A stretch of 11,875 nucleotides of DNA from Candidatus Bathyarchaeota archaeon (lineage in GTDB: Archaea; Thermoproteota; Bathyarchaeia; Bathyarchaeales; Bathyarchaeaceae), in NCBI GenBank assembly GCA_029881555.1, contig JAOUMI010000013.1, forward strand, positions 1 to 11,875, read 5' to 3'. The notes under the pieces were generated by a model. The model was given only the letters and a program-made list of their open reading frames with translations. It was not told where the DNA came from and ran no database searches. Positions 662-10,173 of this stretch are shown here, piece after piece; within the stretch, counting starts at the first letter, position 1, and every line of letters starts with the position of its first letter. The translations under genes and the position numbers were made by a program.

Positions 662-1459
662 TCACAATCCTGCCAATCCGCCGCCGTCCACCACCAACGC
701 CGTGCCAGTGACGAACGACGACGCATCACTCACCAAATACAACACCGCCTGAGCAATCTCTTCTGGACGAGCAACCCTCTGCAACAGATGCGCACCCGCT
801 GATTCAGCCAAGAACTGCTCCCAAGGTTTGCCAAGCTGTCGGGCTTCGCTCCGCAACATAGCCGTATCCGTATCACCAGGACAGATGCAGTTAACACGAA
901 TATTCTGCCCAGCATGGTCAACAGCCATAGCCTTAGTCAGCAGTACAACCGCTCCCTTTGACGCGCAATACGAAGCCGCATCCTGCCCACCGACCAGCCC
1001 CCAATTCGAAGCTGTGTTGACGATCACACCGCCGCCCGCCTCAGCCATAATCGGAATAGCGTATTTCGAAAGCAAAAAGACCGACTTGACGTTAGTTGCC
1101 ATCACCCGATCCCATTCCTCTTCAGTTGTCTCCACCACCGACGCTCGTCGAATGATACCAGCGTTATTGAAGAGGATATCCAGTTTGCCCAGTTGCTCCA
1201 CAGTCTGCCGCACAGCCAACTGGCAGTCTGCCGCTCGCGTCACGTCGCCTTGCACAAAAATAGCCTGTCCTCCCTCGTCGATTATCGTTTGGACTACGGC
1301 TTTTCCCTCAGGTTCGTTCAAATCAAAGATCGCCACCGCCGCGCCTTCTCGGGCAAGGAGCAACGCCGTCGCTCGCCCGATGCCTGACGCGCCACCAGTG
1401 ATCAGGGCGACTTTCCCCTTCAATGCCCCACCAGATTTACGTTCAAAGTCCTGCGTCAA
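662..1459 (-). CDS. SDR-family oxidoreductase (complete, TTG start)
   Basis: A complete 265-residue classical SDR, a normal family length. It has TGGASGIG at 21-28, an acidic beta-2 end (D46 in FDLNEP) pointing to NAD(H), NNAG at 98-101, and the active-site set N123, S151, Y164 and K168 (YCASK). The PG motif follows at 194-195 and the usual C-terminal VTGTALVVDGGG is at about 250-261. FabG-like reductases, glucose or 3-hydroxyacyl dehydrogenases and sugar/polyol dehydrogenases share this layout, so no substrate is named. The start is TTG at 1459, preceded by GAGGTGATCC with 6 nt spacing, an almost full match to the 16S tail found in this window. That Shine-Dalgarno sequence begins two bases after the stop of the kinase-like gene, so the two are probably co-transcribed. 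The next SDR gene overlaps or abuts its stop. Confidence 0.94.
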   Translation of the reverse strand: MTQDFERKSGGALKGKVALITGGASGIGRATALLLAREGAAVAIFDLNEPEGKAVVQTIIDEGGQAIFVQGDVTRAADCQLAVRQTVEQLGKLDILFNNAGIIRRASVVETTEEEWDRVMATNVKSVFLLSKYAIPIMAEAGGGVIVNTASNWGLVGGQDAASYCASKGAVVLLTKAMAVDHAGQNIRVNCICPGDTDTAMLRSEARQLGKPWEQFLAESAGAHLLQRVARPEEIAQAVLYLVSDASSFVTGTALVVDGGGLAGL

Positions 1460-1474: not shown

Positions 1475-2653
1475 CTAACATGATATTTTATAGATGACGT
1501 GCTCATTATATCCAGTCACCACTCTTATATAACCACTTAACATCCTATCAACTGCTCGATCACCAGTATCAACCAAAAAAGGCCTTCCCCGCAATGAATT
1601 GATCTTTTCAGGAGCAGCCACAACCATTATGTTATCCCTCCCCACCTTCTTGATAACCTCGGGACTTATTTGCTGATTCCCCCTACCGAATATGTAGCCT
1701 TGACCACCTATCGGGGTAATTATTATCTTCGCTTTTCGTTTTTCAAGAAGCTTTAGGAGTTGAGCCTCGTTGACATCAGTGCCCGCCAATTTTCCCTTTG
1801 AAACCACATCCACCCCTACTAATGTCTTGTTCAACCCCAGTTTAGACGTGATAGCTCGCGTCGTGGTCCCAGGTCCGACTATGTAAAGATAATCGTCCTT
1901 CATCCCATCCACGACCTCACAAGCTATCGCTTCCATAGCTTCCTTCTCTCCGCCGCTACTTGGAGTCTTTAAACCTTGAATCAGCCTTTTCTCAAACGGA
2001 ATCCTAAGGTAACCATACAGTTTCGCGGAAACAATGCCCCGCCTAAGAGCCTCCTCATCTATATCCATGACCTCCGCCTCTCGTATGCCACATCGTCCCT
2101 GTAAAAATAAAACAACCAGATCCCCCGCGCTTCTAGGGCTTATCGCAAAAGCAGCCGAATGAATCTTAACCCCCGCAGGTATCCCAAGAACTGGCATTTT
2201 TTCTCCAATCGCATTGTATATGTCCCTTGCTGTGCCATCCCCACCCGCAAAAAGTAGAAGATCCACGCTCAGACGCAGCATTTCCTTCGCTGCATTTTTA
2301 GTATCCTCTGCGGTTGTTTTGCCTTTTCTAATTGAACCAACTACAATGTGGTCAAAACCACATTCTTTGGCTGCGTCTTCTCCCATTTCACTGGGATATG
2401 TTACGATTTCGAGGTCTTCCTTTACGGAGGCTACTCTTTCCAGTGCTTGAACAGTCCGAGTTAGCGATTGCGGCAAGGCACCCAATTGTAGGGCTTTCTT
2501 TTGTATCTCCGCCCCATCACTTCCTTTAAGTCCAACCCTTCCACCTATCCCTGCAATCGGGTTGACGATTAAGCCTAACTTTCTTCTCCCACTTTGATTC
2601 CGACTTTTGTCCATGAACTGACAAGTGTGCCACGGGAACATTTGCGTACTCAT
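1475..2653 (-). CDS. AcoX / ATP-NAD kinase-like protein
   Basis: 392 residues from the most upstream ATG. It resembles the COG3199-type ATP-NAD kinase/AcoX group. Visible signs are a glycine-rich NPIAGIGG segment at 31-38, the kinase signature GGDGT at 137-141, a GIPAGVKIHSAAFA segment at about 158-170, and a GPGTTTRAI segment at about 260-268 in the C-terminal half. NAD kinases phosphorylate NAD to NADP using ATP or polyphosphate. For the AcoX branch the reaction is not settled, so NAD kinase activity here is an inference. The start is uncertain: ATG 2653, ATG 2641 and ATG 2614 are all in frame and none has a strong Shine-Dalgarno sequence; homology begins only at about residue 25. It lies 45 nt after the gcvPB-like gene and directly before an SDR gene, consistent with one operon. 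Confidence 0.85.
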   Translation of the reverse strand: MSTQMFPWHTCQFMDKSRNQSGRRKLGLIVNPIAGIGGRVGLKGSDGAEIQKKALQLGALPQSLTRTVQALERVASVKEDLEIVTYPSEMGEDAAKECGFDHIVVGSIRKGKTTAEDTKNAAKEMLRLSVDLLLFAGGDGTARDIYNAIGEKMPVLGIPAGVKIHSAAFAISPRSAGDLVVLFLQGRCGIREAEVMDIDEEALRRGIVSAKLYGYLRIPFEKRLIQGLKTPSSGGEKEAMEAIACEVVDGMKDDYLYIVGPGTTTRAITSKLGLNKTLVGVDVVSKGKLAGTDVNEAQLLKLLEKRKAKIIITPIGGQGYIFGRGNQQISPEVIKKVGRDNIMVVAAPEKINSLRGRPFLVDTGDRAVDRMLSGYIRVVTGYNEHVIYKISC

Positions 2654-2698: not shown

Positions 2699-4270
2699 CT
2701 ATTCTCTCTCTTTGCGTACTTTCTTGCGATACGCCCTCCAAGTCATCGCCCACTGCGACGGATCGTCCAAAGGCGCCGTATCAATCTTGTGAATAGTGCT
2801 ATTGTGAGGAGCGGTCTTAACCAGCTCAGGGTTCGTGTACGCCTCGTCGGATACTTGCCTAATTATCTCAACATATTCATCTAGGTCAGCCTTAGAATAC
2901 GATTCGGTTGGCTCAAGGGTACAAGGCTCTGGAACTACCCATGGGTGATGGCTGGTCCAGTAATGAACACCGAAGTCCGCAGCTCTAAGTCCGATTTCCT
3001 CGGAATGAACCCCCGTATCTCTCGTCAACTTCTCCAAGCTATACCTCACCTGTTCAATTCGACGTTTGCCCTTGGCGTAAGGCGCACTCACTCCTCGTAT
3101 CTCTAACAACTTATTGAGTAGATAATTGTTGTTGAGAACAGCGATCTCAGCGACCTCTTTCAGACCTTCAGCGCCGTGACTCATCGCCCACGCGTATGAT
3201 TTCAATACCACTGGTGCGACGCCACAAAATGCTCTCACCTTTCCAATACTCTCGGGCCTGCCATAGTCCAAATGATACTTACTACCATCAAACTCGATAA
3301 CTGGAACTGGCAGGAATTTTGCGAGTTCTTTGGTTACACCGATAGCGCCGACTGCTGGTCCACCACATCCATGAGGCGACGAAAATGTCTTATGCAAATT
3401 AAAGTGGCAAAGATCAAAACCAGCCTCCCCCGCCCTAGTTATGCCTAATATTCCGTTAGCATTTGCCTGGTCATAGGAGCACAATCCTCCCGCTTCGTGG
3501 ACGACCTTCACGAACTCTTCAATCTTTGGATTAAAAATTCCCGTGTCCTCCGGGTTTGTTATCATCAGCCCGGCTGTACGCTCTGAAACCGCTGCTTTCA
3601 ACGCCTCAAGATCAGGATAGCCATCCTCATCAGGATACAGAGTTATGACCTTGAAACCAGCTGTTTTGGCACATGCCGCATCTGAAGGATGAGAGAAAAT
3701 TGTCGTAATGATCTCATCTCTCTGATCTGCTTCCCCCCGAGCTTCGTGGTACGCTCTTATGATCGAAGCATTCGCGTATATAGCCTGGGAACCAGCAGCA
3801 GGTTGAAACGAAAACTGGTCCAACCCCGAAATCTCTTTGAGAATCTGCTCGAACTTGTACATCACCTCAAGTATGCCCTGAACAGTTTCTTCATCCTGTA
3901 ACGGATGAATCTCCGTCATTTGAGGCATTCTGGCCAGTTGTTCGTTGATCTTCGGACTGTATTTCATCGTACAGGTTCCCTGTCCCACGTCAATGTTTAG
4001 ATCCGTCCCCAAAGTTTCCTGTGACAGTCTAATATAGTGTCTTAACACTCGTGGTTGGGAAAGTTCTGGTAATCTAGGCGGCTGTTTCCTCCGCATGCTC
4101 TCAGGTATGGTTGACACAACATCTCCGACTTCACTTTTTATCTCATCCTCAACATCTGGTAAGAGGACGCCTCTCTCTCCTTCGCTGCTCAATTCAAAAA
4201 TTATCGGTTCATCCCACCTAGCTTGATGAAACCGCCTCAGTTTCGGTTTTCCACCTGTATACCGTTTCAT
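2699..4270 (-). CDS. gcvPB: Glycine dehydrogenase subunit 2-like protein (divergent GcvPB)
   Basis: 523 residues from ATG 4270. This is the PLP-binding half of split glycine decarboxylase (P-protein), a fold type I enzyme. The Schiff-base lysine is K294 in NLHKTF (292-297), followed by SSPHGCGGP. D267 in SYDQAN is the likely partner of the pyridine nitrogen, and QPAAGSQ lies at 156-162. The N-terminal FELSSEGERG segment is also typical. Unusually, the region that reads AHGTNPAS in standard P-proteins reads SHPSDAAC here (193-200), LDGAN reads SYDQAN, and TYPSTHG reads TNPEDTG (238-244). The substrate may therefore differ from glycine. ATG 4270 is chosen for GGAGG eight bases upstream; ATG 4285, one base after the gcvPA-like stop with its own GAGGT, is an alternative. 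No gcvT, gcvH or lpd is nearby. Confidence 0.88.
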   Translation of the reverse strand: MKRYTGGKPKLRRFHQARWDEPIIFELSSEGERGVLLPDVEDEIKSEVGDVVSTIPESMRRKQPPRLPELSQPRVLRHYIRLSQETLGTDLNIDVGQGTCTMKYSPKINEQLARMPQMTEIHPLQDEETVQGILEVMYKFEQILKEISGLDQFSFQPAAGSQAIYANASIIRAYHEARGEADQRDEIITTIFSHPSDAACAKTAGFKVITLYPDEDGYPDLEALKAAVSERTAGLMITNPEDTGIFNPKIEEFVKVVHEAGGLCSYDQANANGILGITRAGEAGFDLCHFNLHKTFSSPHGCGGPAVGAIGVTKELAKFLPVPVIEFDGSKYHLDYGRPESIGKVRAFCGVAPVVLKSYAWAMSHGAEGLKEVAEIAVLNNNYLLNKLLEIRGVSAPYAKGKRRIEQVRYSLEKLTRDTGVHSEEIGLRAADFGVHYWTSHHPWVVPEPCTLEPTESYSKADLDEYVEIIRQVSDEAYTNPELVKTAPHNSTIHKIDTAPLDDPSQWAMTWRAYRKKVRKERE

Positions 4271-4286
4271 GGTTATATCCTCCATC

Positions 4287-5684
4287 TTATTCAACTACCT
4301 CCTTCAGCGCATCAACCAGCCTAACAATGTCATCCTTAGTGTGAACTTCAGTAACACAATAAAGTGCGCTATTCCCCAGCCCCGGGAATTCTTTTGTCAG
4401 GTCTTTTCCACCGAATATTTTACGCCTCAACAGAGCCCTATTGATCTCCTCAACTGTCTTACCAGTATCATCAAAGTTCACGACGAATTCCTTGAAATGA
4501 GTTGACCGGAAAACGGGACACTTGACGCCCTTTATCTTAGATATCTGCAACATCGCGTAATGCGATCTTTGCATGACGCCTTCGCCGATTTCCCGCATAC
4601 CCTGAGGTCCCATAAGCGCCAAGTAAACACCAGCCGTTATGCCCCATAAAGCAGTGGCTGTGCCCACGAACTCTTTGCCCTCCTCCCTCAACGCGAAAGA
4701 GGTCCGGTCATAAGCAACGTCACCGAATCCATACTCCCCTTCAACCGAAGTCGGGGCTATTCCAAACAGCCTAGAAGGATATTCCATAACGTACTTCTTT
4801 TCATCCCGAGTGGCAATGAATCCAGCATGACCACCACCAAATTGCATGTGCATACCGAACGGTTGTATATCGCCGCACACTATGTCCGCACCATACTCAA
4901 TCGGAGGAGCCAAGATTCCCAACGAAATCGGATCGACCCCAACAATGCATATCGAGCCATGGTCATGGGTTATCTTAGAAATCTCATCCCCATGAGCCTC
5001 AATAAAACCGAGGTAGGATGGATTCTCAAAATAGACGGCGGCGGTCTTTGAAGAAATCTCAACCTTGAGGGAATCGAGGTCTAGTTGCCCGGTCTCAGTG
5101 TCATAGCCTAGCAACTTGACCTCTATCTCAGGCTTGCAATAATCCCTGATTTTCGATAATTTGTCAGCGCCGATTGTTCTAGACACTAGCACTTCGCGTC
5201 GGCCTGTGATTCTTGATGCCATACGAATGGAAGTAGCAACTGCTTGCAACCAGTCATATGTTGGAACATTCACAACATCCATGTTTAGAAGCTCTCCCAT
5301 CATGCTCGCGTACTCGAAAAGCGCCTGCCACCTCCCGTGATCATCATAAGGTTCGCCTGCGTACGCGGTTAAAAATTCACCTCGCTGATTCACCTCGTCA
5401 CACACTGCAGGAACATAATGTTGCCAGCATCCAGCTCCCAAAAAACTGAGATATTCCTGACAGGTCTTGTTTTTCGAAAGGATCCCTTCCACGTGCTTTC
5501 TCAAAGAGAATTCGGACAAGAGAGGTTTGGGCAAATTCATGTTTTTCTTGAGCCTGAGTTTCTCAGGGATATCCTCGAAGAAGTCCTCCGCGCTCTTTGC
5601 TCCAACCTCTTTGAGCATCTGATTCTTTACGGTGGGCACAGAGTTCGGGATGTACGGATACACGGTCTGTTTTTCTTCGCTCAT
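4287..5684 (-). CDS. gcvPA: Glycine dehydrogenase subunit 1-like protein (divergent GcvPA)
   Basis: 465 residues, a usual GcvPA length. This subunit pairs with GcvPB to form the P-protein heterodimer that decarboxylates glycine and passes the aminomethyl group to lipoyl-GcvH. Family signs are the N-terminal YIPN..PTVKNQML segment, FLGAGCWQHYVP (about residue 80-90), FLTAY, a GGGHAGFIA segment and a C-terminal helper domain. Two segments that face the active site in standard enzymes are changed: TPYQPEISQG after the FxTAY motif is replaced by AGEPYDDHGR, and the S(L/M)xDxATA motif by PTYDWLQAVA. The start is ATG 5684, with GAGGA seven bases upstream. A TTG at 5708 would extend the frame, but lies at or before the start of transcription expected from the TATA box at 5721-5730. 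First gene of the cluster; it ends one base before a possible gcvPB start. Confidence 0.88.
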   Translation of the reverse strand: MSEEKQTVYPYIPNSVPTVKNQMLKEVGAKSAEDFFEDIPEKLRLKKNMNLPKPLLSEFSLRKHVEGILSKNKTCQEYLSFLGAGCWQHYVPAVCDEVNQRGEFLTAYAGEPYDDHGRWQALFEYASMMGELLNMDVVNVPTYDWLQAVATSIRMASRITGRREVLVSRTIGADKLSKIRDYCKPEIEVKLLGYDTETGQLDLDSLKVEISSKTAAVYFENPSYLGFIEAHGDEISKITHDHGSICIVGVDPISLGILAPPIEYGADIVCGDIQPFGMHMQFGGGHAGFIATRDEKKYVMEYPSRLFGIAPTSVEGEYGFGDVAYDRTSFALREEGKEFVGTATALWGITAGVYLALMGPQGMREIGEGVMQRSHYAMLQISKIKGVKCPVFRSTHFKEFVVNFDDTGKTVEEINRALLRRKIFGGKDLTKEFPGLGNSALYCVTEVHTKDDIVRLVDALKEVVE

Positions 5685-5720
5685 ACTCCATTCCTCGTCT
5701 ATTGACAAACTAGCTTATCC

Positions 5721-6283: not shown

Positions 6284-6871
6284 TTGAAGCCGATAAAAGC
6301 GATAAAAGATCCTGAAGCGTTTCAGCTGTTAGGCGACGAAACCAGAAGGAAAATAGTGTTTCTGCTTAGGGTTAAGGAGATGACCGTGAGTCAGATTGCT
6401 GCGGAGCTGAACATTACTCCTCAAGCGGTTTACCATCACATAAAGAAGCTTCAGAAGGCAGACATGGTGGAGGTGGCACGGGAAGAACGCATTGACCACC
6501 TCATTGAGAGCTACTACAGAGCAACTGCTGAGACTTTCTTTTGCAGCGTAGGGAAAACTCCCCGTAGTAGAGAACTCGCCGAAGACCAAGTGAGGACCGT
6601 CCTCAACGCTTTGAAGAGACTTGGTTTCAACCTTGAATTCGATGAGAACCAGATTTCTCAGTTAATTAACGTGGGGAGTAAGCTTGACGAGTACAAATGT
6701 TCTGAGAAGTTTGAAGATGCTATAGCTGACTTAAATGATGTGGACTTTCTTACGAAACAGACGGTTCAGGAGTACGCTGAAATTGTTTCGATGTCTGATA
6801 AGGAGTTCAGTAGACAGCAAGAACTTAAAAAGAAGTTTAGGGATCTGCTGATTTCCCTCGTTAAGAAATAA
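6284..6871 (+). CDS. ArsR-type winged-helix transcription regulator
   Basis: 195 residues. Residues 11-70 form an ArsR-family winged helix: FQLLGDETRRKIVFLL is helix 1-2, the helix-turn-helix runs from MTVSQIAAELNITPQAVYHH with the recognition helix at about 45-57, and ADMVEVAREER is the wing. The remaining 125 residues are an alpha-helical, charged domain, much longer than metal-sensing ArsR proteins of about 100-120 residues, and probably a dimerisation or effector domain; the ligand is unknown. There is no CxC metal-site motif in the helix used by ArsR. The start is TTG 6284, with GAGG four bases upstream (6276-6279) and no better ATG nearby. It diverges from a small basic gene and probably regulates both by the AAACAT sites upstream. 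Its end converges on the 16S rRNA gene. Confidence 0.88.
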   Translation: MKPIKAIKDPEAFQLLGDETRRKIVFLLRVKEMTVSQIAAELNITPQAVYHHIKKLQKADMVEVAREERIDHLIESYYRATAETFFCSVGKTPRSRELAEDQVRTVLNALKRLGFNLEFDENQISQLINVGSKLDEYKCSEKFEDAIADLNDVDFLTKQTVQEYAEIVSMSDKEFSRQQELKKKFRDLLISLVKK

Positions 6872-7115: not shown

Positions 7116-8612
<1,497 letters not shown>

Positions 8613-9035: not shown

Positions 9036-9503
9036 TTAGTATGAGCCTTTCCCCAGAAGGACGAAGAAGGCTACGCCGATCACTGAGATTACTGCGATCA
9101 CGAGGACGTAGAACAGGGTTTGGGGGATTCCCATTATGTAGTGTTGAACGTCGTAGTTCAGGGTAACCATTTTTTCTTCCAGCGACTGGGAATTGTCAAA
9201 GTGCAGAGTGTAAACGCCGGCAGTTGTTGCGTGCAAAGAGAAGCTCTTTTGACCCACTGTGTCATACTGTATAATAGTGTCTCCGTTGGGATCGGTAACG
9301 GAGAAGTTTAATGCATTTATTGTTTGTCCGACCACGGTGAAGCCTATTGCAACGCGGTCATCATTCTGAAGGTTCAGTGATTTTGTAACTTCACTTTCCG
9401 GAGCCACCGTTAAGTTCTCGGTTGTTGCGTTGGCGTTGCATGTGATTAGGCTGGTTATGATTAGGAAAAAGGTTAGAGGGAGAACAGCATTTTTCTGTTG
9501 CAT
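9036..9503 (-). CDS. Secreted/membrane-anchored protein with p24/GOLD-like domain
   Basis: 155 residues from ATG 9503. Residues 1-26 look like a signal peptide (short polar start, hydrophobic LPLTFFLIITSLI, ANA before the likely cut). Residues about 30-120 are a beta-rich extracellular domain with NFSVTDPNGDTI, GQKSFSLHATTAGVYTLHFDN and KMVTLNYDV, the order seen in the GOLD domain of eukaryotic p24/emp24 proteins (V-DP-G, F-A-G-Y, F-N-S, K-V). A single transmembrane helix at about 128-150 leaves a five-residue tail (GKGSY). The protein would sit outside the cell, anchored at its C-terminus. An ATG at 9545 adds 14 charged residues and fits a signal peptide less well; neither start has a clear Shine-Dalgarno sequence. 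It diverges from rubrerythrin. The GOLD assignment is from pattern alone; other small beta-sandwich families are possible. Confidence 0.75.
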   Translation of the reverse strand: MQQKNAVLPLTFFLIITSLITCNANATTENLTVAPESEVTKSLNLQNDDRVAIGFTVVGQTINALNFSVTDPNGDTIIQYDTVGQKSFSLHATTAGVYTLHFDNSQSLEEKMVTLNYDVQHYIMGIPQTLFYVLVIAVISVIGVAFFVLLGKGSY

Positions 9504-9607
9504 CGTAGTTCCATGTTGAGTTTTCTGTTTCTCTCTTGAAAACATTATGAACCATTAATCTAGATCGAGGATACTGTCAGTTTGTCGAGGAAAGCAACTC
9601 GTTAATG

Positions 9608-9651: not shown

Positions 9652-10173
9652 ATGAGCAAGACTGAAGAAAACCTGAAATTTGCGTTTGCGGGTGAGAGTC
9701 AAGCGAGAAACAAATACGCTTTTTTTGCAGAAGTTGCGAGAGCAGAAGGGTTTGAGCAGATCGCAGCCATCTTTGAGGAAACAGCAGCCAACGAAAAGGC
9801 TCACGCAGAACGACTTTTCGAATTTCTGAAGGGCGTTGGCGACACAAAACAAAACCTGAAGACGGCTATTGAGGGTGAACACTACGAATGGACACAAATG
9901 TATCCAACGTTCGAGAGAGAAGCACGCGAAGAAGGACTCACTGAAATAGCTGATGTCTTGAAGGAGATAGCTGAGGTGGAGGAGCAACACGAGAAAAGAT
10001 ATGGAAAGCTCCTCAAAAACTTGGAAGAAGGAAAGGTCTTCAAGAAGGAAAAAGTGGTCAAATGGAAGTGTCGAAACTGCGGCTACGTTCACGAAGGAAA
10101 AGAACCACCCGAAAGTTGTCCTGTCTGCGGATACTCCCAAGGCTTTTATGAACTGTTATGCGAAAATTACTAG
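9652..10173 (+). CDS. rbr: Rubrerythrin
   Basis: 173 residues, a typical length. Rubrerythrin reduces hydrogen peroxide in the cytoplasm of anaerobes. Residues 1-125 form the ferritin-like four-helix bundle with the di-iron ligands visible as E15 (AGESQA), E48 and H51 (ANEKAH), E76 and E79 (GEHYEW) and E110 and H113 (EVEEQH). Residues 138-173 are the rubredoxin-like domain with C140-x2-C143 (CRNC) and C156-x2-C159 (CPVC), which holds one Fe(Cys)4 and passes electrons to the di-iron site. The start ATG 9652 follows GGTGA with about 8 nt spacing. A desulforedoxin-like gene follows 24 nt after the stop, probably in the same transcript, so the two may act together against oxygen stress. All key residues are present. 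Confidence 0.96.
   Translation: MSKTEENLKFAFAGESQARNKYAFFAEVARAEGFEQIAAIFEETAANEKAHAERLFEFLKGVGDTKQNLKTAIEGEHYEWTQMYPTFEREAREEGLTEIADVLKEIAEVEEQHEKRYGKLLKNLEEGKVFKKEKVVKWKCRNCGYVHEGKEPPESCPVCGYSQGFYELLCENY

Follow-up and report, generated by a model that had tools for sequence, protein, structure and literature searches.

We analyzed an 11,875-nucleotide (nt) contig (JAOUMI010000013.1, here called the window) from the 841-kb, 70.7% complete genome of a Candidatus Bathyarchaeota archaeon, and found that its GcvPA-like and GcvPB-like genes, which resemble the two subunits of the P-protein (glycine decarboxylase), firmly belong to a separate and widespread P-protein family, as judged from alignments and trees. 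What the family does can be stated more tentatively. Our best guess, which we regard as possible though short of probable, is that the variant is a pyridoxal 5'-phosphate (PLP) enzyme that was derived from the P-protein and does not serve glycine cleavage, that it works in a catabolic operon together with an NAD-kinase-like protein (NK) and a short-chain dehydrogenase/reductase (SDR), and that its substrate would be a vicinal amino alcohol, perhaps 5-hydroxylysine from collagen.

No frame of the operon is broken, and on the minus strand the genes run in the order GcvPA-like, GcvPB-like, NK, SDR and a second, cut-off SDR (Table 1). The PRK00451 and PRK04366 scores of the pair exceed the NCBIfam cut-offs, so that it has the homology of both P-protein subunits. 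The probable start of the GcvPA-like subunit is the ATG at 5684, where relatives of 465 amino acids (aa) begin; the nearest named match to the GcvPB-like subunit (92%) is in a Bathyarchaeota metagenome-assembled genome (locus L004). An earlier note on this DNA, made from the letters alone, had pointed to intact frames in both subunits, a retained PLP lysine context (NLHKTF) and changed motifs in GcvPA and GcvPB. All three were borne out: both minus-strand open reading frames are unbroken, the lysine (K302) is common to variants and standards, and the changed pattern is conserved across 98 variant pairs and hence not due to chance. The limit at 5684 given in the note also matches the probable GcvPA start.

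We compared 98 variant and 31 standard pairs in one alignment, in which a position was called fixed when at least 90% of the standards and at least 85% of the variants agreed (residue numbers are those of Thermus). Sorting into variant and standard used the absence of one motif, AHG(T/S)N, and this motif is thus not independent evidence; the same division is seen in the tree and in the remaining motifs. One locus whose GcvPB slot held a GcvPA was left out (L094), one was counted as standard (L114), and two were excluded by the length filter (L022, L104). Variants and standards differed at 31 fixed positions, 8 in GcvPA and 23 in GcvPB, while the PLP lysine K302 (within NLHKTF), H202 of the SHP motif, D275, N278 and the CTMK stretch were kept in both alike. 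Because K302, H202, D275 and CTMK are common to both while 31 positions differ, the alignment indicates that the PLP site is retained and its surroundings are altered in the variant pairs. The robust differences in GcvPA included T96A, P97G, E101Y and S129P, plus a one-residue deletion (AYTPYQPE to AYAG-EPY), and those in GcvPB were P70G, S73T, A165S, G167P, T214D, G240Q, E376Q, V378R and Y405H. Two changes missing from the list in the earlier note are a new arginine, R417, in 98/98 variants and a histidine, H449, in 98/98 variants where the standards have tyrosine. The near-invariant P-protein motifs TPYQPE, PLGSC, AHG(T/S)N, TNPNTLG and YDGAN are altered in the window's pair and throughout the 98 variants; by the alignment, the altered motifs are the signature of a large separate family. 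The motifs quoted in the earlier note are also kept in the relatives sampled, 16 for GcvPA (A1) and 14 for GcvPB (A2), picked from at least 120 listed each. Some of its motif contrasts, those with TYPSTHG, LDGAN and YDW, shrink against split standards: split standard pairs carry TNPNTLG and YYDGAN, and the W of YDW is also seen among the GcvPA standards from the archaeal class to which the window belongs (its own class). These contrasts were partly overstated because the yardstick had been the single-chain, E. coli-type GcvP and not split standard pairs.

The trees gave the same picture. With FastTree, the 98 variants formed one clade with a support of 0.992 for GcvPA, 0.995 for GcvPB and 1.0 for the joined alignment; L122 branches nearest the root of the clade, followed by two large groups. 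With IQ-TREE, run on 87 rows (37 variants and 50 standards, 19 of which were from variant-bearing genomes), the variant clade was again recovered (100/100, stem 0.38), and its sister was a set of 13 standard pairs from the own class (100/100); several deeper nodes among the bacterial standards were poorly supported (42-80). The separate subfamily that had been suggested thus appears as a single clade in each subunit tree, its signature is held across the 98 variants, and standard pairs from the same genomes branch outside it; placement inside ordinary glycine decarboxylases with many motif-sharing members did not occur. By tree position, the variant would lie outside the functional P-proteins, provided that the function of the sister standards is assumed.

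We then asked how often the variant shares a genome with a standard P-protein. GcvPA scores in 151 own-class genomes fell into two bands, with standards up to 397 bits and full-length variants at 185-237 bits (204 for the window); by score there were 22 variant places in this class, of which 20 were retrieved and 18 of these entered the tree. By score, 21 own-class genomes carry a full-length variant; a match of at least 290 bits is present as well in 17 of them, and the other four (G000, which is the window's, G098, G101 and G107) are all less than 90% complete. Among the 48 named variant-bearing genomes that were scored (L075 was left out), 43 also have a standard P-protein by score (E ≤ 2.7e-105); those without such a match are G151, G158, G173, G174 and G195, with partial further matches in G151, G174 and G195. 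H-protein is encoded in 48/48 of the named genomes, weakly in three (G158, G173 and G174), and GcvT domains in 46/48, often in fused frames of 800-1270 aa; these genes neither support nor exclude a lipoyl acceptor for the variant.

Some observations on these proteins stand apart from the variant. Five genomes (G154, G155, G161, G162 and G165) hold many GCV_T domains in frames of 800-1270 aa, up to several per genome, and such long frames are probably dehydrogenase fusions. The own class has GcvH in 139 of the 151 genomes and P-proteins in 97, an excess that suggests another role of the H-protein there. The sole GcvH of the window's genome (L003 107-1905) adjoins a gene for a 467-aa flavoprotein reductase-like protein. 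Eighteen phage records match GcvPA, including Prochlorococcus and Listeria phage entries, with contamination being possible.

Next, we counted genes within 10 kb of 109 variant loci (98 that entered the tree, plus 11 truncated ones) and 41 standard loci, the latter consisting of 21 from other groups (20 regions and Haloterrigena) and 20 from the own class; several locus regions are shorter than 10 kb on one side. NK was present at 87/109 variant vs. 0/41 standard loci, and SDR at 82/109 vs. 0/41. Among the 68 variant loci that are flanked by at least 3 kb on either side, NK was found in 59, SDR in 59 and both in 54 (within 4 kb). The two large groups of the variant clade both have NK as a partner, and the window's order of PA-PB-NK-SDR-SDR was also found in loci L023 and L027. 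NK resembles the NAD-kinase family in having both NAD-kinase domains and a GGDGT motif conserved at 98-100% per position in 81 sequences. NK distances track those of GcvPA (r 0.82) and GcvPB (r 0.66) over 75 loci, correlations that are inflated by shared descent and that 0/2000 permutations reached. On plasmids NK is rare: among 72,556 records, 13 contain a homolog, including all 8 with an identified variant pair (160 records match GcvPB, and 12 were opened among 40 listed); it is adjacent to the pair in 7/8 and about 54 kb away in Natronosalvus. At a Sphingomonas locus there are zinc alcohol dehydrogenases, perhaps in place of SDR. These constant new partners, and the second, standard P-protein in most named genomes, would indicate another substrate, as had been proposed from the motifs.

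The genes gcvH and gcvT were both found within 10 kb at 0/109 variant loci; for the standards, gcvH was found at 19/21 other-group and 1/20 own-class loci, and gcvT at 5/21 and 1/20. Own-class standard gcvPA/gcvPB (L171-L190) are separate from gcvH and gcvT in 19/20 loci. We had considered the absent linkage as proof of another function and dropped this argument after the 20 own-class standard loci were added, since linkage was found in 1/20 only; this slightly weakens our best guess and slightly strengthens the case for an ordinary glycine decarboxylase.

We favor a vicinal amino alcohol, with hydroxylysine as the best guess, because of three kinds of neighbors: a pair of glycosidases, HypD and lysine 2,3-aminomutase. 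An alpha-glucosidase (GH63-type) is near 18/109 variant loci (13 Actinomycetota and 5 Chloroflexi), and a beta-galactosidase, near 17/109, accompanies it in 17 cases; genes for a sugar-type ABC transporter are likewise clustered at 17/18 of these loci. In Actinomadura, the glucosidase is a GH63 YgjK-like protein (479 bits to 3d3i) and the galactosidase a GH42 protein, and the Chloroflexi locus L041 has a distant GH63/MGH1-like glucosidase and a LacZ-type GH2 enzyme. The L041 genes form a same-strand run in which about 20 bases separate the end of the glucosidase from the likely start of GcvPA, and SDR and galactosidase overlap by 4 bases; a frame overlap between glucosidase and GcvPA disappears with the GcvPA start at ATG 8562. 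The preference of YgjK is for Glc-alpha-1,2-Gal. Collagen hydroxylysine is known to bear the glycan Glc-alpha-1,2-Gal, for which a glycosidase pair of this kind is required (PMC8537180, PMC8626586). HypD (trans-4-hydroxyproline dehydratase) is near 5/109 loci, two of which were tested and scored 1201 and 1341 bits against a cut-off of 1100; we counted it as a collagen hint because hydroxyproline is the other collagen mark. At L028, the gene directly after NK is a lysine 2,3-aminomutase (623 bits vs. a cut-off of 525).

Other neighbors were more varied. EutB-like genes (cluster c24) are in four loci (L009, L010, L023 and L027), with the one tested below its cut-off (395.6 of 413), and cyclodeaminase (EutC-like) genes (c41) are in L023 and L027, the one tested being above one cut-off and below another; both would fit 3-hydroxy-2,4-diaminobutyrate, which is also a CH(OH)-CH2-NH2 compound. 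Oligopeptide-binding-protein-like proteins are encoded in 9 loci. MttB, M20 deacylase and an ornithine aminotransferase-like (class-III) protein are encoded near 6/109, 8/109 and 7/109, respectively, and these three are not specific. A Gemmobacter pair is flanked by an acyl-CoA synthetase and a primary-amine oxidase, and a CoA-transferase is found in loci L017 and L137; these neighbors would agree with products that comprise an acid and a small amine, but such genes are few. Three general functions were rejected on these counts: ectoine use, for which EutB-like genes occur in 4 loci only and the tested one is below its cut-off; methylated-amine use, with MttB near 6/109 loci and two tested below the cut-off (488 and 399 of 525); and sugar use alone, which accounts for 18 loci only.

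From this we infer the following reactions, and with them the substrate. SDR would first oxidize the hydroxyl of R-CH(OH)-CH2-NH2 to an aminoketone, whose terminal amine could then form an external aldimine with PLP on K302, a lysine that is kept. Cleavage of the C-C bond beside CH2-NH2 in the hydrated ketone would yield an acid and, bound to PLP, an aminomethyl carbanion. The same carbanion arises in glycine decarboxylation, and here it might leave as methylamine or go to a thiol acceptor. The acid would be handed to an acyl-CoA ligase or CoA-transferase where one is linked. NK might supply NADP, act as a regulator or carry out a kinase step. The fuller proposal, a repurposed glycine decarboxylase that makes the aminomethyl carbanion by ketone C-C cleavage without CO2 release, in an unrecognized route by which archaea and bacteria would use vicinal amino alcohols, collagen hydroxylysine among them, with a partner of NAD-kinase fold, is more doubtful. 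If the substrate idea is true, the family gains a reaction and microbes a hydroxylysine route.

Several results weigh against C-C cleavage of hydroxylysine or a similar compound. The mechanism uses most of the conserved partners but gives NK no clear role, and SDR is missing from 9/68 of the well-framed loci and NK from 9/68, including L122 on the deepest branch. The glycosidase context is limited to two lineages, the Actinomadura alpha-glucosidase falls just below its NCBIfam cut-off (615.6 of 625), and the L041 glucosidase has only a weak match (42 bits) to enzymes of known structure. In the neighborhood of the window's own pair, glycosidases, HypD and aminomutase are all absent. The MttB, M20 deacylase and EutB/EutC contexts point to other amines, so that more than one substrate is possible for the family. 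Genes for acid activation are scarce (AMP-binding 1/70 and CoA-transferase 4/70, from two loci, among scanned neighbors). The missing gcvH/gcvT linkage separates the variant from standards outside its own class, not within it. Finally, the search of the window's own genome for a standard system, which the earlier note had called for, gave one GcvH; neither a standard GcvPA/GcvPB pair nor GcvT was found in this 71% complete genome, and the variant is the only P-protein found there. Taken alone, this genome is therefore no evidence that a different enzyme carries out glycine cleavage.

The strongest rival, unlikely but worth weighing, is that NK acts as a kinase on the hydroxyl of hydroxylysine or another amino alcohol, and that phosphate and ammonia are then eliminated by the GcvPAB-like PLP enzyme, in an unrelated counterpart of the animal HYKK/PHYKPL pair. 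This would explain NK, with its presence in both large variant groups and its conserved GGDGT, and the invariant Arg417 and the ...HGR loop of GcvPA could bind phosphate. It leaves SDR unneeded, though SDR is in 59/68 framed loci, requires a C-C-cleavage fold to perform beta-elimination, and meets the same absence of NK from 9/68 framed loci, the deepest branch L122 among them. Aldehyde dehydrogenase is found at 1/70 scanned neighbors, with acid-activating genes nearly as rare. We make no firm choice between C-C cleavage and this kinase/phospho-lyase scheme.

It is rather unlikely as well that the pair decarboxylates some amino acid bigger than glycine and still passes the product to a lipoyl acceptor. 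The fold family, the PLP site, the H- and T-bearing genomes, the changed pocket motifs and the residue deleted in the GcvPA loop are consistent with it, but the links to SDR and glycosidases are left unexplained, and an H-like gene is near 0/109 loci, an argument of little weight in the own class. A divergent but otherwise ordinary isoform of glycine decarboxylase, sharing H-, T- and L-proteins encoded elsewhere, appears improbable: the above-cut-off NCBIfam matches, the catalytic lysine, GcvH in 48/48 (3 weak) and GcvT in 46/48 named genomes, the lack of any other P-protein in what was found of the window's genome and the likewise mostly unlinked standard pairs of the own class all fit it, but near-invariant motifs are replaced in 98 variants, a standard P-protein is already in 43/48 genomes by score, and NK and SDR are near 0/41 standard loci. 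A non-catalytic or decaying copy, to which the changed motifs near the active site might point, was dismissed as most improbable, as the earlier note had held, by intact frames, strict conservation over many phyla, retained PLP residues and co-inherited partners.

Table 1. Positions of the operon genes and other features in the window.
Feature	Position	Strand	Evidence or remark
GcvPA-like subunit (variant P-protein alpha)	4287..5708	(-)	PF02347 204 bits, NCBIfam PRK00451 503 bits; variant signature
GcvPB-like subunit (variant P-protein beta)	2699..4294	(-)	PRK04366 606 bits; 1wyt_B E 6.6e-93; signature
NAD-kinase-like protein (NK), conserved partner	1475..2653	(-)	PF01513 70 bits, PF20143 72 bits
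SDR dehydrogenase 1, conserved partner	662..1459	(-)	PF13561 229 bits; PRK06138-like 292 bits, below cut-off 312
Second SDR, truncated by contig start	3..638	(-)	tblastn 37% identity to SDR 1
ArsR-type winged-helix regulator	6284-6871	(+)	divergent from operon
Archaeal 16S rRNA gene, full	7116-8611	(-)	Rfam RF01959, 1500 bits
169-aa protein with emp24/GOLD domain match	9036-9545	(-)	PF01105, E 2.7e-9
Rubrerythrin	9652-10173	(+)	NCBIfam 234 bits vs. cut-off 200

Outside the operon, the ArsR-type regulator is a possible candidate for its regulation. The open reading frames listed within the 16S rRNA gene are spurious. The emp24/GOLD domain is best known from eukaryotic trafficking.

Database names for the variant proteins are GcvPA and GcvPB, from NCBI models, and because of such names a genome can be assigned glycine cleavage, or the reductive glycine pathway. 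For example, in a Brockarchaeota paper, GcvPA and GcvPB of JZ-2.136 are assigned to the reductive glycine pathway (PMC8065059). Brockarchaeota JZ-2.bins.136, which we equate with JZ-2.136 by name, has a variant pair (L005) and, by score, a standard pair (G152); the pathway claim can stand because the standard pair is also present, the gene name alone being insufficient. A literature search at the level of listings found no description of the variant subfamily, and no bacterial hydroxylysine-breakdown gene was seen in the titles and abstract openings of part of the matching papers.

Among known systems, the split GcvPA/GcvPB of Thermus thermophilus (1wyt) is the closest: it has the same two subunits with near full-length homology (E 5.8e-69 and 6.6e-93), the PLP lysine in NLHKTF and the kept His and Asp, whereas the window's family has 31 changed fixed positions, its own clade, and NK and SDR as partners. 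Animals degrade hydroxylysine with the HYKK/PHYKPL pair, a hydroxylysine kinase of the HYKK family and a phosphohydroxylysine phospho-lyase that is class-III aminotransferase-like. A kinase-type protein beside a PLP enzyme would be the analogy here, but the window's NK is NAD-kinase-like and its PLP enzyme is P-protein-like, not an aminotransferase, so that neither falls into the HYKK/PHYKPL families. Threonine dehydrogenase makes an aminoketone that is cleaved by the PLP enzyme 2-amino-3-ketobutyrate CoA ligase, a similar idea in which the PLP family, the bond and the products differ from our proposal. AcoX of acetoin operons is NAD-kinase-like too and lies next to an enzyme that cleaves a substituted ketone; it would be a parallel to NK, with a different cleavage enzyme.

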